A stretch of DNA of 64,000 nucleotides, taken from the NCBI RefSeq assembly GCF_000443995.1, contig NZ_AUMC01000010.1, positions 62,001 to 126,000 of the forward strand, in the 5' to 3' direction. Under the pieces are notes generated by a model. That model saw nothing but the letters and a program-made list of their open reading frames with translations, did no database searches and had not been told where the DNA came from. Every line of letters starts with the position of its first letter. Position 1 is the stretch's first letter. The translations under genes and the position numbers were made by a program. Origin of the DNA: Bacteriovorax sp. BAL6_X (GTDB taxonomy: Bacteria > Bdellovibrionota > Bacteriovoracia > Bacteriovoracales > Bacteriovoracaceae). This document shows positions 5,748-9,211 of the stretch, piece after piece.

Positions 5748-6140
5748 CTACTGATCTTGTTTTCTTAGCTCATAGCTAATGTCACTAAAGTTGCGATTAA
5801 CACAACTAACGAATGAGTAACTAACACCTCTTCCAATATTCATACAGTGACTAAGAAACATTCCTAGCTCACTTTCAATTCTTCTAAAATTACTGTTAAC
5901 ACAACTTTCAAATGAGAAGCTCAGGTCATCTCCAAAGTTATTGCAATATTGAAGAAAAAGATTGGGTAGCTCAAATTCGGCACGCCTAAAATTTGAGTTG
6001 ATACAACTTGTGAATGAGTAGTTCACCTTGTCTCCGAAGTTTGAACAGTGTGATGGAAAATATCTTTCTTGTTCACTCGAGGCACTTACATTAAAAATAG
6101 TAAAAACTAAAAATACAATCGATACTAAAGCTGATTTCAT
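5748..6140 (-). CDS. Small secreted protein with three tandem cysteine-pair repeats
   Basis: 130 residues: an N-terminal signal peptide (about 1-20), then three near-identical units of 33-34 residues. Each unit has two cysteines 14 residues apart (C32/C46, C66/C80, C99/C113), an aromatic-Ser-Phe core (YSF or FSF), a following N-x-NF, and an acidic end such as EFEL or ESEL. Example of one unit core: HCSNFGDKVNYSFTSC. The even spacing suggests one disulfide per repeat and a rod or small solenoid outside the cytoplasm. No known family recognised. The start has a ribosome site (GGGAGGAAT). It converges on the receiver gene. Confidence 0.85.
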   Translation of the reverse strand: MKSALVSIVFLVFTIFNVSASSEQERYFPSHCSNFGDKVNYSFTSCINSNFRRAEFELPNLFLQYCNNFGDDLSFSFESCVNSNFRRIESELGMFLSHCMNIGRGVSYSFVSCVNRNFSDISYELRKQDQ

Positions 6141-6281: not shown

Positions 6282-7046
6282 ATGTTTAATAAAACGCAAG
6301 AAGTTGAGGAGCAGAAACCTGCTTTTCTATCAGGTCAATGGTTTAAAGATGAAGCATTATCATGGATTAAAATTATTTTAATCGTTTTTGGTTTTAGATC
6401 GACTTTTATTGACCACTACCATATCCCAACAGGATCATTACTTCCTACAAATGCGATTGGTGACTCGATTGTTGTAAATAAAATGTCTTATGGCCTTAAG
6501 GTTCCATTTACTGAGTTTTTTAACCCAATCTATATCGGTGGACAATCTCTCCCAGAACGCGGTGACATTGTTGTTTTCGAATATCCAATAAATCCCTCAA
6601 TTCTTTTCGTAAAGAGAACAATTGGTCTACCTGGGGATACAATTGAAGTTTATGAAAATGAACTGTTCATTAATGGTAAGAAGATTGAGAAGACAGCTGT
6701 CGAAGGTGAAGAGGATAAAGAGCTAAGAAGTCTATATGATAAAGAACCTTCACTTAATCCTGAAGATATGAAGTTCTATTACCAAACAATTGGTGAGAAG
6801 AAGTTCACAGTAGGTGAGAATCCAACATTCTTTAGACATCTAAATCAAGAAAAGGTAACTGTTCCTGATGGACACGTTTTTGTAATGGGCGATAACAGAG
6901 ATTATTCAAGTGATTCTCGTGTTTGGGGATTTGTCCCTATAAAGAATATTCGTGGTAAGGCATTCATGGTGTGGATGTCGATGGTGTACCCTTGGTCCGA
7001 CAAGCCATTTCACTTTAGACCAAGTCGAATCGGTACATCTCTTTAA
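6282..7046 (+). CDS. lepB: Signal peptidase I
   Basis: A 254-residue inner-membrane serine protease that removes Sec/Tat signal peptides. One N-terminal membrane segment (about 28-44) is followed by the catalytic serine S52 in IPTGSLLPT and the general-base lysine K111 in FVKRTIGLPGD. The conserved box GDNRDYSSDSR lies at 203-213. The residue after the catalytic serine is Leu instead of the very common Met. The ribosome site is GTGAGGAAA. It appears monocistronic and is followed by a strong terminator; the many secreted proteins encoded nearby would be its substrates. Confidence 0.96.
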   Translation: MFNKTQEVEEQKPAFLSGQWFKDEALSWIKIILIVFGFRSTFIDHYHIPTGSLLPTNAIGDSIVVNKMSYGLKVPFTEFFNPIYIGGQSLPERGDIVVFEYPINPSILFVKRTIGLPGDTIEVYENELFINGKKIEKTAVEGEEDKELRSLYDKEPSLNPEDMKFYYQTIGEKKFTVGENPTFFRHLNQEKVTVPDGHVFVMGDNRDYSSDSRVWGFVPIKNIRGKAFMVWMSMVYPWSDKPFHFRPSRIGTSL

Positions 7047-7079
7047 GTTTTCCTGACAATAAATTCACTATGGGGCCAC

Positions 7080-7111
7080 AAAGGAAAGTACTCGGGTACT
7101 AGTTCCTTTTT
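7080..7111 (+). terminator. Terminator of lepB
   Basis: Outer arms AAAGGAA (7080-7086) and TTCCTTT (7103-7109), inner arms AGTAC (7087-7091) and GTACT (7096-7100) around a TCGG tetraloop, followed by T's. Confidence 0.8.
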
Positions 7112-7145
7112 GGTCCTATGCTAAGTGGTTGTTTTTGTAGGACCA
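7111..7145. repeat. Perfect inverted repeat after the lepB terminator
   Basis: TGGTCCTA (7111-7118) and TAGGACCA (7138-7145) are perfect 8-base arms around 19 bases. It lies about 90 bases before the sigma-54 promoter, where an enhancer-binding activator site would be expected; it could also be a second transcript hairpin. Confidence 0.4.
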
Positions 7146-7235
7146 CTGATCTTTCTATAGTGCGGCCTGTGGGGCATTTTGCACACTTCAATTGTAAAGT
7201 TTTTGTAAGTTATTGAATCTATTATTTACCAGTTT

Positions 7236-7251
7236 TGGCACGATACCTGCT
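7236..7251 (+). promoter_or_regulatory. Sigma-54 (RpoN) promoter
   Basis: TGGCACG (7236-7242), four bases, then CTGCT (7247-7251). The GG and GC dinucleotides are separated by exactly 10 bases, as required for the -24/-12 class (consensus TGGCACG-N4-TTGCW). Transcription would start near 7262, at the first base of a highly structured, gene-free stretch. Such promoters need an AAA+ activator bound upstream. Confidence 0.7.
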
Positions 7252-7261
7252 TATATATAAG

Positions 7262-7453
7262 TATCCAGAGGCCAGGGGGCCTCCCCAAGATTAGGACGAT
7301 TTTGGGATTTAGCAATAGGACGTTGCTATGGAAACTGAGAGTTACACTTATGAATGTAAGGTCGCTTTCAGGAAAAAAATGGGCCTAGAGGACAGGGCAA
7401 CAGAATTGTAAAAAGCAAGAAGCTTAATCAAAACCACCTCTAGGCCCCTTTTT
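7262..7453 (+). ncRNA. Putative sigma-54-driven structured small RNA with GGA-loop hairpins
   Basis: About 192 bases from the predicted start to a terminator, with no credible reading frame. Successive hairpins: 7268-7283 (GAGGCC/GGCCTC, AGGG tetraloop); 7284-7306 (8 base pairs with one G-U, loop TAGGACG); 7310-7328 (TAGCAA/TTGCTA, again loop TAGGACG); 7335-7371 (CTGA/TCAG closing TTACA/TGTAA); and the terminator stem. Two unrelated stems displaying the same heptaloop with AGGA at the tip is the layout of CsrA/RsmA-titrating RNAs. Further GGA triplets lie at 7330, 7371 and 7390. It does not show the conserved cores of tmRNA, SRP RNA, RNase P RNA or the GEMM riboswitch. Identity is inference; the promoter, structures and terminator are visible. 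Confidence 0.6.
7381..7453 (+). terminator. Terminator of the first structured RNA
   Basis: GGGCCTAGAGG (7381-7391) pairs perfectly with CCTCTAGGCCC (7437-7447), 11 base pairs around a 45-base loop, followed by CTTTTT. Confidence 0.75.
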
Positions 7454-7475
7454 AAAACATTGTTGTTTATTTAGA

Positions 7476-7621
7476 GTGTCCACGGAAGGACACGAAGAAA
7501 ACATGGAAGTTTATAGATAAGCTTTGGAGACATCCCTCTCTCCCTATGATTTGACCCAAAGCTTATAGAGGCCGAGAGTAACGTGTGTGGTTTTAAGAAA
7601 GGAGTACTCTCGGCCTTTCTA
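7476..7621 (+). ncRNA. Second structured RNA unit in tandem
   Basis: A second gene-free structured block directly after the first terminator. It contains a hairpin 7476-7493 (GTGTCC/GGACAC) with hexaloop ACGGAA, a canonical A-N-GGA presentation; a single-stranded ACATGGAAGT (7501-7510) close to the CsrA selection consensus; an 11-base-pair stem ATAAGCTTTGG/CCAAAGCTTAT (7517-7527, 7556-7566); and a 12-base-pair terminator stem. No separate promoter could be identified, so it may be read-through product, processed RNA, or start from an unrecognised promoter near 7460. Its function is inferred only from structure. Confidence 0.5.
7569..7621 (+). terminator. Terminator of the second structured RNA
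   Basis: AGGCCGAGAGTA (7569-7580) and TACTCTCGGCCT (7605-7616) form 12 perfect base pairs around 24 bases, followed by TTTCT. Confidence 0.75.
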
Positions 7622-7684
7622 CATTCTAAGGAATTATTTTCCGCAGCCCTTTTCGCCTTTAACTAACGCTTGCAATGAACCGAT

Positions 7685-8137
7685 GTGCTCATTGTGAGAA
7701 AATCAAACTATGTCATCTATTTACAATTTGAACGAGCTCTAGGAGAAGAATTTCTCTATATGTCTCGCGTGTTCTCGGAATTTGGAATGAAGCTTGTACC
7801 AATGAAGCTTGATGATTTTAAATCCATCAGAATGAAGGAACATCAATTTGTAATTTGTTGCGTTCGCGATATTCGAGCACTGATTAATTATCAAAAGTTA
7901 TTAAAAAGATATATGAACTTCATGCTTAGGCAGGGAAGTATCACTTTATTTGAATATAGTTCATTTGCTATTACTCACGATGATGCCATCCTAAAAACCA
8001 AGAAGGTCTTTCAAGAAAGACTTCCTGTCAGTATGTTTCGTATGGCCGATCGTGCAGGACAAGAGATATTCAGTAAACTTGTGACAAATTCTTCTCGCTG
8101 GCCAGGTGGGAAGAGAGCAAAGCTACCTGAGTATTAA
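7685..8137 (+). CDS. Unknown 150-residue protein
   Basis: A soluble, basic protein without signal peptide or membrane segment; alternating hydrophobic stretches (QFVICCVRDIRALINY near residue 55, GSITLFEYSSF near 85) suggest an alpha/beta fold. The C-terminus is basic (WPGGKRAKLPEY). The start is a GTG at 7685 chosen as the first in-frame start after the RNA locus; no Shine-Dalgarno is visible, and GTG at 7694 is an alternative. It is followed after 17 bases by another unknown gene, probably co-transcribed. I do not recognise the family. The response-regulator-like alternation of strands and helices is weak and no catalytic pocket is seen. Confidence 0.7.
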   Translation: MLIVRKSNYVIYLQFERALGEEFLYMSRVFSEFGMKLVPMKLDDFKSIRMKEHQFVICCVRDIRALINYQKLLKRYMNFMLRQGSITLFEYSSFAITHDDAILKTKKVFQERLPVSMFRMADRAGQEIFSKLVTNSSRWPGGKRAKLPEY

Positions 8138-8154
8138 AAAGGAATTGAGAGAGA

Positions 8155-8550
8155 ATGAGAATTTCAAAGGAAGTAAGTCGTTTACTTATTATTCTAAGGC
8201 AAGATGCGGCCAGACTTGCTGATAAAATCATTCACCGCGAAAGAGAGTATCTGCAGATCTTATCGATGAAGCGTACTCGCGAACATTTCAATGCAATTTT
8301 TAGATCAAATTTTAAAACCATAACGGTTGCACAACTTATGCTCTTATCTGAAGAGCTGATTGTTAATCTTGAAGATTTCTATAATACCGTGGATGACCTC
8401 CATTGGTATCTTGCGCATACAGAAGATATGCCCGCAACAATTGAAGATAAAGTCCATGCTATGGTAAAAATGGTGAAAAACAAGTATGAACAATTAAATC
8501 TTTATCTAAATGCGGAGCTTGAGACCCATGAAGAAAGCGCTATTGCTTAA
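8155..8550 (+). CDS. Unknown 131-residue alpha-helical protein
   Basis: A cytoplasmic, nearly all-helical protein rich in charged residues (RLADKIIHREREYLQ, DKVHAMVKMVKNKYEQ). No domain recognised. It starts at an ATG after GAGAGA and overlaps the next gene by 23 bases, so the three genes from 7685 to 9211 are probably one transcript. Helical amphipathicity suggests a protein-protein adaptor or regulator, but nothing in the sequence fixes a function. Confidence 0.75.
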   Translation: MRISKEVSRLLIILRQDAARLADKIIHREREYLQILSMKRTREHFNAIFRSNFKTITVAQLMLLSEELIVNLEDFYNTVDDLHWYLAHTEDMPATIEDKVHAMVKMVKNKYEQLNLYLNAELETHEESAIA

Positions 8551-9211
8551 ACTCATCATTATATTATCTTGCCTATTTCGCGATGCCTTCGCACGTCAGA
8601 GTATTTCTGGTTCTCGCTATGAATTATTGACTGGCCAAAGGGTCCAAGAAAAAGCCTCAAATATGTGGGATAAGAAATTTGCCCAGCATGATTATATCTA
8701 TGGAAAGTCCCCGGCTCACTTTCTAGCAAAAAATTATCAGCAGATTCCTAGAGGTGCGACTGTTCTAGATATTGGAATGGGTGAGGGGAGAAACGCTGTC
8801 TTCCTTGCTTCAAAAGGTTATAAAGTAACAGGTGTTGATATTAGCTCAGTTGCTATTGATAAGTCCCTAAGACTTGCAAGACAAGCAGGTGTTCGTATTA
8901 AGACAATTCACAAATCAGTTGATGATTTAAAAATTGCAAATAACTCACTAGATGCAATTATTTGCTTCTACTATGTTGATAGAGAAGTTTCTGAAAAGTT
9001 GAAGAAGTGGCTTAGACCTGGCGGAGTTATTATTTATGAAGGCTACACGACTGAGCACAAGAAGAAATACAAAGAGCAGAGCGTCGATTCATATTTTTTA
9101 AAACCTGCGGAGCTATTAAGCATGTTCAATGATTTCAAAATTCTTAAATATGAAGAGCCACGTCACAATGCCGAGCTTACTCAATCGATCATCGCTCAAA
9201 AGCCTGAATAA
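8528..9211 (+). CDS. Class I SAM-dependent methyltransferase with an N-terminal signal-peptide-like extension
   Basis: 227 residues. The Rossmann methyltransferase motif I is TVLDIGMGEGRN, followed by GYKVTGVDIS (motif II acidic residue) and IICFYYV. The core resembles TehB/UbiE-like small-molecule methyltransferases, which normally begin at the WDKKFAQHDYIYG block (about residue 44 here). Before it sits a strongly hydrophobic leader (MKKALLLKLIIILSCLFRDA) ending in AFA, which looks like a Sec signal peptide or membrane anchor. The ATG at 8528 is preferred over one at 8510 because it gives this leader and follows GGAG. An internal ATG before WDKKF lacks a ribosome site. A methyltransferase outside the cytoplasm would lack SAM, so anchoring to the inner face is the more plausible reading. 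Confidence 0.8.
   Translation: MKKALLLKLIIILSCLFRDAFARQSISGSRYELLTGQRVQEKASNMWDKKFAQHDYIYGKSPAHFLAKNYQQIPRGATVLDIGMGEGRNAVFLASKGYKVTGVDISSVAIDKSLRLARQAGVRIKTIHKSVDDLKIANNSLDAIICFYYVDREVSEKLKKWLRPGGVIIYEGYTTEHKKKYKEQSVDSYFLKPAELLSMFNDFKILKYEEPRHNAELTQSIIAQKPE

Follow-up and report, generated by a model that had tools for sequence, protein, structure and literature searches.

GGA exposed in a hairpin loop is the form taken by CsrA/RsmA sites (reviewed in PMC7652899). RNA antagonism of CsrA has been described mainly from γ-proteobacteria, and a published survey found fliW to be strongly anti-correlated with BarA-UvrY, the system that drives the decoy RNAs; the same survey suggests FliW control in δ-proteobacteria and many other groups, and FliW species are held to have no need of decoy RNAs (PMC4682653). 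In Geobacter, candidate CsrA decoy RNAs have been predicted (PMC11934962). Several further RNAs invite comparison. CrcZ and CrcY of Pseudomonas and Azotobacter are RpoN-dependent, activator-controlled RNAs that titrate an RNA-binding regulator (PMC6292655, PMC4063720), the fim mRNA of Salmonella both binds and inhibits CsrA (PMC4347634), the TwoAYGGAY RNA was reported from the human gut, γ-proteobacteria and Clostridiales (PMC2864571), and the merRNA of the predatory relative Bdellovibrio is an abundant stand-alone RNA for which a sponge role has been proposed (PMC3627812). A literature search, with most subscription journals outside it, returned no sigma-54-controlled CsrA decoy RNA and no such decoy in relatives of Bdellovibrio.

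The locus described here lies in a 64,000-nucleotide stretch of Bacteriovorax sp. BAL6_X DNA, hereafter the window, and probably encodes a sigma-54-driven, CsrA-sequestering RNA of ~360 nt. This reading is drawn from sequence, in which the promoter, the hairpins, their covariation, conservation and synteny, and genes for CsrA, FliW, RpoN and activators are all present. The RNA is like CsrB/RsmB, CsrC and RsmX/Y/Z of the γ-proteobacteria in its intergenic position, its length (the CsrB model has 356 positions), its many GGA hairpin loops, its 3' terminator-like stem and the presence of CsrA in the genome. It is unlike them in its sigma-54 promoter, in the FliW of its genome, in an added domain with an invariant C/U loop and in falling below the Rfam cut-off, and no UvrY/GacA palindrome was found near the locus with up to two mismatches allowed. 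It is unusual in being controlled by sigma-54, in having a host with FliW and in its additional C/U loop. As a working analogue CrcZ would stand closest, although CrcZ titrates Hfq(-Crc) by A-rich motifs whereas this locus has GGA loops suited to CsrA. The fim mRNA is resembled by leaders found in related genera (see below), but at this locus the coding part seen in CsrA-binding leaders is gone or reduced, leaving a stand-alone RNA; merRNA differs in containing a c-di-GMP riboswitch, for which the locus gave no match.

Genomic setting and the sigma-54 promoter

The locus, 7047-7684, is the gap between lepB, which ends at 7046, and an ORF starting at 7685. It contains no listed ORF of at least 80 aa, and its description in an earlier note as a gene-free gap filled by a structured RNA was borne out. 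The features are as follows.

7111-7118, minus strand: activator-like half site TAGGACCA (TGGTCCTA on the plus strand), from congener word counts
7138-7145, plus strand: activator-like half site TAGGACCA, from congener word counts
7235-7251, plus strand: sigma-54 promoter TTGGCACGATACCTGCT, with the -24 GG at 7237-7238 and the -12 GC at 7249-7250
7268-7283, plus strand: SL1, loop AGGG; AGGAA or ACGGAA in relatives, the GGA being lost here
7284-7306, plus strand: SL2, CCCAAGAU-UAGGACG-AUUUUGGG, putative CsrA site (fold, GGA-loop count, arm permutation)
7310-7328, plus strand: SL3, UAGCAAU-AGGAC-GUUGCUA, putative CsrA site (fold, GGA-loop count)
7328-7411, plus strand: 27-aa ORF of doubtful coding status, with a 10-aa ORF in frame with it from 7379
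7335-7371, plus strand: SL4 hairpin, its end adjoining a GGA (fold)
7381-7391/7437-7447, plus strand: unit 1 closing stem GGGCCTAGAGG/CCTCTAGGCCC (listed also as GGGCCUAGAGG/CCUCUAGGCCC), followed by T5
7476-7493, plus strand: SLa, GUGUCC-ACGGAA-GGACAC, a CsrA-type hexaloop
7499-7512, plus strand: SLb, AAAC-AUGGAA-GUUU, a weak stem here (AUAC-AAGGAU-GUAU in congener G001)
7517-7566, plus strand: SLc, AUAAGCUUUGG/CCAAAGCUUAU, its pairing kept though the stem sequence varies among relatives
7530-7544, plus strand: C/U loop ACAUCCCUCUCUCCC within SLc, 15 nt, invariant, a putative base-pairing seed
7570-7615, plus strand: SLd end stem GGCCGAGAGTA/TACTCTCGGCC (7570-7580/7605-7615), with AAAGGAG in the loop
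7685-8137, plus strand: downstream gene, family not known, marking the syntenic position

The sigma-54 box, previously noted as a consensus promoter with exact spacing, is indeed an exact pattern match at 7236-7251 and recurs at the orthologous place in four congeners; the RNA would have its 5' start near 7262. An extended pattern (TTGGCAC-N6-TGCW-N1-12-TATA) occurs at 14 distinct sites in the window's genome, this locus among them, and its reversed form, used as a control, at none in six genomes. Among the 14, the promoter at 7235-7251 alone has more than one GGA-loop hairpin after it, with three inside 150 nt; the other 13 sites all precede ORFs and have at most one each. These 13 sites lie shortly 5' of their ORFs, many of which have signal-peptide-like starts, as though sigma-54 in this genome chiefly serves exported proteins. 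A separate site in G001 (contig C13, ~1502, minus strand) joins a sigma-54 promoter and a GGA-rich leader to a gene that by eye resembles one for a secreted serine protease.

Besides the exactly spaced -24/-12 box, the attributes of a sigma-54-dependent transcript found here include RpoN, AAA+ activators (11 domain matches in the window's genome, seven of them strong) and a conserved upstream activator-like site. The last corresponds to the 8-base inverted repeat that had been reported, TGGTCCTA at 7111-7118 and TAGGACCA at 7138-7145. TAGGACC/GGTCCTA words number two to four in the 125 bp preceding the promoter in each of the five congeners, compared with 0.01-0.04 in shuffles. Words of the form TTTTGACA also lie upstream of the promoter in four of the five, and this motif is enriched at the same place in the rest of the family (GTCAAA in 22 of 29 loci vs 5.3 in shuffles). 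The hairpin following lepB (~7069-7120) had been taken for a lepB terminator, a view in need of correction: a terminator scan returned none at that place, and the hairpin makes no clear terminator because it has no T run after it and has the TGGTCCTA half of the inverted repeat inside. We read it instead as a piece of the promoter's upstream region, its 3' arm holding TGGTCCTA.

Two observations concern the neighbours. On the minus strand at 5748-6140, adjoining lepB, is a small protein whose start is signal-peptide-like and which contains three SF.SC.N.NF repeats. Positions 7685-9211 hold two small genes without a Pfam family and then a methyltransferase gene; the first of these, which ends in a RWPGG.RAKLP motif, serves as a locus marker across the family.

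Structure and class of the RNA

Unit 1 (7256-7455) has a predicted fold of -73.7 kcal/mol (z -5.9 vs shuffles) and unit 2 (7468-7625) one of -48.1 kcal/mol (z -3.6). Both structured units and the stems that close them had been recognized earlier and stand; their interpretation as two independent RNAs is less favoured, since no separate sigma-70-type promoter was found between the units, and a single RNA of ~360 nt (~7262-7622) is more likely on the sequence. The unit 1 terminator proposed in the earlier note exists as a stem at 7381-7391/7437-7447, which, with 45 nt enclosed, is not a classical short-loop terminator. The T tract of SLd is weak in the window and better in the congeners.

GGA occupies the loops of SL2 (UAGGACG), SL3 (AGGAC), SLa (ACGGAA) and SLb (AUGGAA), and is found further in AGAGGACA and in the loop of SLd. 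It could be asked whether these motifs are incidental, belonging to ribosome-binding sites of decayed small ORFs in a structured RNA unrelated to CsrA. Some of them are in fact ribosome-binding sites of short ORFs in the congeners. We nevertheless regard this explanation as very improbable: most of the GGA lie 5' of any start, in the apical loops of hairpins that covary, the AYGGAW hexaloops and AUACAAGGAUGUAU agree with the CsrA consensus, and the Rfam match found is CsrB.

That match does not make the RNA a member of the CsrB family. No Rfam family reached its gathering score at the locus, in keeping with the earlier note, and covariance models and ARAGORN likewise gave no match to tmRNA, SRP RNA, RNase P RNA or GEMM, nor any tRNA or tmRNA at the locus. 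CsrB (RF00018) is the lowest-E match in the window's locus (E 0.024, 16.3 bits, against a threshold of 71); in the orthologous stretch of G001 nothing else matched, and CsrB reached 31.3 bits (E 5.3e-7 on 491 bases; E 2.6e-5 on 24 kb). Because 16.3 and 31.3 bits are both below the curated 71, the RNA is not filed in RF00018 and is likened to the functional class of the CsrB/RsmZ decoys. The locus had also been put forward as an undescribed element. It does lie below every Rfam cut-off, but it can be classified, with CsrA/RsmA-type loops and the CsrB/RsmZ decoys as its nearest kind. The ACGGAA and AUGGAA loops of unit 2 recall the AYGGAY-like hexaloop hairpins of TwoAYGGAY, but that motif, which we take to be RF01731, was not among the Rfam matches up to E 5 here, nor listed in relatives. 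Matches to snR80, UnaL2 and PCA3 at the locus were put down to chance.

The presumed partner is present. CsrA (77 aa) is encoded between flgL and fliW in the window's genome, which therefore encodes FliW as well, and it has L4, R6, R44, E46 and N55, the last being the residue tied to FliW control (PMC11934962); among the family genomes, 52 of 57 carry CsrA. Two properties of CsrB/RsmZ-type systems are in this way found together, namely several GGA hairpin loops above chance and a CsrA with its RNA-binding residues.

From these elements we infer the following course of events. An AAA+ enhancer-binding protein, probably acting at the TAGGACCA pair, would open the sigma-54 promoter, and when the activator is on, sigma-54 polymerase would make the ~360-nt RNA. 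Its five or six GGA motifs, mostly in hairpin loops, would bind several CsrA dimers, and titration of CsrA would release CsrA-repressed mRNAs. The C/U-loop hairpin in the second half probably pairs with other RNAs, for example at Shine-Dalgarno regions. Against decoy action speak the missed CsrB gathering score, the presence of FliW, the loss of GGA from SL1 and the weakness of SLb. If the proposal is true, a decoy RNA exists in a FliW lineage, so that both kinds of CsrA control can coexist, and CsrA has been brought under sigma-54; this may link a global regulator to a change of lifestyle in probable predators.

Conservation among congeners and the C/U loop

Congeneric loci were gathered by a DNA search of relatives, followed by extraction of the sequence lying 5' of the 7685 homologue; the five are those of the window's genome (G000) and of G001, G002, G003 and G005. 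In all four congeners with data the locus recurs, complete with its sigma-54 box, both units and the downstream gene, at low overall identity (mean column identity 53% and 64%). GGA-loop hairpins number 5, 8, 5, 5 and 5 in the five loci vs 1.4-1.7 in shuffles, the observed count being matched by 9, 0, 8, 4 and 14 of 500 shuffles, respectively.

The comparison with relatives that had been suggested as a check revealed compensatory change. The 3' stem arms were exchanged between species. Only two of 120 permutations, the identity included, did at least as well as the true pairing for SL1, SLc, SLd and the stem closing unit 1; for SL2 the figure was four of 120. The test covers just five sequences, with helices picked by hand, and so the covariation rests on few sequences. 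Hand-taken arms also substituted for a consensus fold of unit 2, for which RNAalifold on a MAFFT alignment recovered SLa and SLd and missed SLc because the alignment is not structure-aware. RpoN control of a structured RNA that covaries in relatives, as originally proposed, is thus supported by the promoter, the congener loci and the stem-arm permutations; the developmental or flagellar switch named with it is a suggestion of the earlier note.

No invariant word is longer than the C/U loop, ACAUCCCUCUCUCCC, which is exact in the five congeners and variant in two other genera. Ensemble predictions leave it mostly unpaired in G001, G003 and G005, and to a lesser degree in G000 and G002. Outside the five congeners that have it, the exact 15-mer ACATCCCTCTCTCCC has a single occurrence in the family, within a coding region of G105; across all species genomes its occurrences among the matches listed are scattered, at the chance level for so short a word. 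Such invariance raises the prospect that the RNA is chiefly an antisense RNA working through this loop, its GGA hairpins merely recruiting CsrA as helper or stabilizer. The complement of the loop resembles a ribosome-binding site, and it has matches at the ATG of a cytochrome-like gene and, in G003, just 5' of yicC. The candidate targets in the two genomes are not the same gene, a reversed control is matched about as often as the complement, and the GGA loops have been kept despite complete turnover of their stems, all of which makes a chiefly antisense function quite improbable. A target search returned no conserved target of the loop. In the window's genome the sole other exact copy of the 10-mer GGGAGAGAGG (locus L294, 1501-1510) abuts the ATG of the exported cytochrome-like protein, which has a RoxA-like cytochrome c domain and is a possible target.

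Gene A and the origin of the RNA

In other genera, a sigma-54 promoter stands upstream of the 7685 homologue and is followed by a leader containing GGA hairpins, by a gene here called gene A and often by one more gene, matrixin-like where tested. Gene A encodes a small exported protein without a Pfam family; a search located it in 67 of the 124 family genomes, the six of the window's genus all lacking it. A sigma-54 site precedes it in 29 of the 30 loci fetched from other genera, with an average of 2.2 GGA hairpins vs 0.6 in shuffles. Two genera (L084/L085 and L093/L094) have a single RNA without gene A, ordered as promoter, GGA hairpins, C/U-loop hairpin and end stem, and in another locus (L078) the GGA array lies directly 5' of the 7685 homologue.

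Possible traces of a coding past persist in the congeners. Four of them have, at the same place in unit 1, an ORF of 50-60 aa with a ribosome-binding site, its ribosome-binding/start region forming the 5' arm of the closing stem; some of its sequence (SCKFQ..SEAS) is, by eye only, similar to gene A. The window has lost this ORF, that at 7328-7411 being a different one, and has kept the closing stem and a CUUG...CAAG-type internal hairpin. With gene A absent from the genus and a short ORF in four relatives, the RNA looks like an mRNA leader turned stand-alone; by sequence, unit 1 would descend from a gene-A leader, and the RNA as a whole probably goes back to a CsrA-regulated leader, that of the small exported-protein gene which other genera have retained. 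If so, it would offer a traceable case of an mRNA leader becoming a regulatory RNA.

Since the related forms found in the rest of the family are mRNA leaders, a cis role is conceivable, in which the RNA is a CsrA-controlled 5' leader or attenuator of the genes from 7685 onward instead of a decoy in trans. Promoter and GGA leader do run, in other genera, into the exported gene, the matrixin-like gene and the 7685 homologue, the L078 array is immediately 5' of that homologue, and about ten gene-A loci pair the ribosome-binding region with an ORF stretch that often has U-rich sequence after it. In the window's genus, by contrast, the exported gene is lost, the SLd end stem and T tract stand between the RNA and the 7685 homologue in all five congeners, and five to eight GGA hairpins exceed the needs of a cis switch. 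We consider a cis leader unlikely and continue to prefer the CsrA-sequestering RNA.

The pairing in gene-A loci deserves comment in itself. At ten loci the ribosome-binding region of gene A finds a better partner inside its own ORF than in the equivalent stretch of nearly any other species, which suggests an attenuator, though not a general one. The idea that such pairing is universal in gene A was rejected, as the own pairing ranked in the top 3 of 29 in 10 loci only, and so was that of a general CTCTCTC tract in the leader or early ORF (8 of 29 loci). A more elaborate scenario, which we hold to be doubtful as a whole, would have a sigma-54-dependent, CsrA-regulated mRNA become, in the window's genus, a stand-alone dual-function RNA that, in a probably predatory host with FliW, titrates CsrA by its GGA hairpins and silences chosen mRNAs by pairing of its C/U loop with their ribosome-binding sites; in the sister genera, the gene-A ribosome-binding region would pair with a U-tailed stretch of the ORF, and messages blocked by CsrA would end prematurely and serve as decoys in their turn.

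One genus (g8; loci L060, L058 and L221) has AGGACGAAGC in place of the AGGAUGAAGC of other genera, which holds the start codon of gene A. The ATG has there become ACG with the GGA hairpin kept, and an upstream ATG may serve instead.
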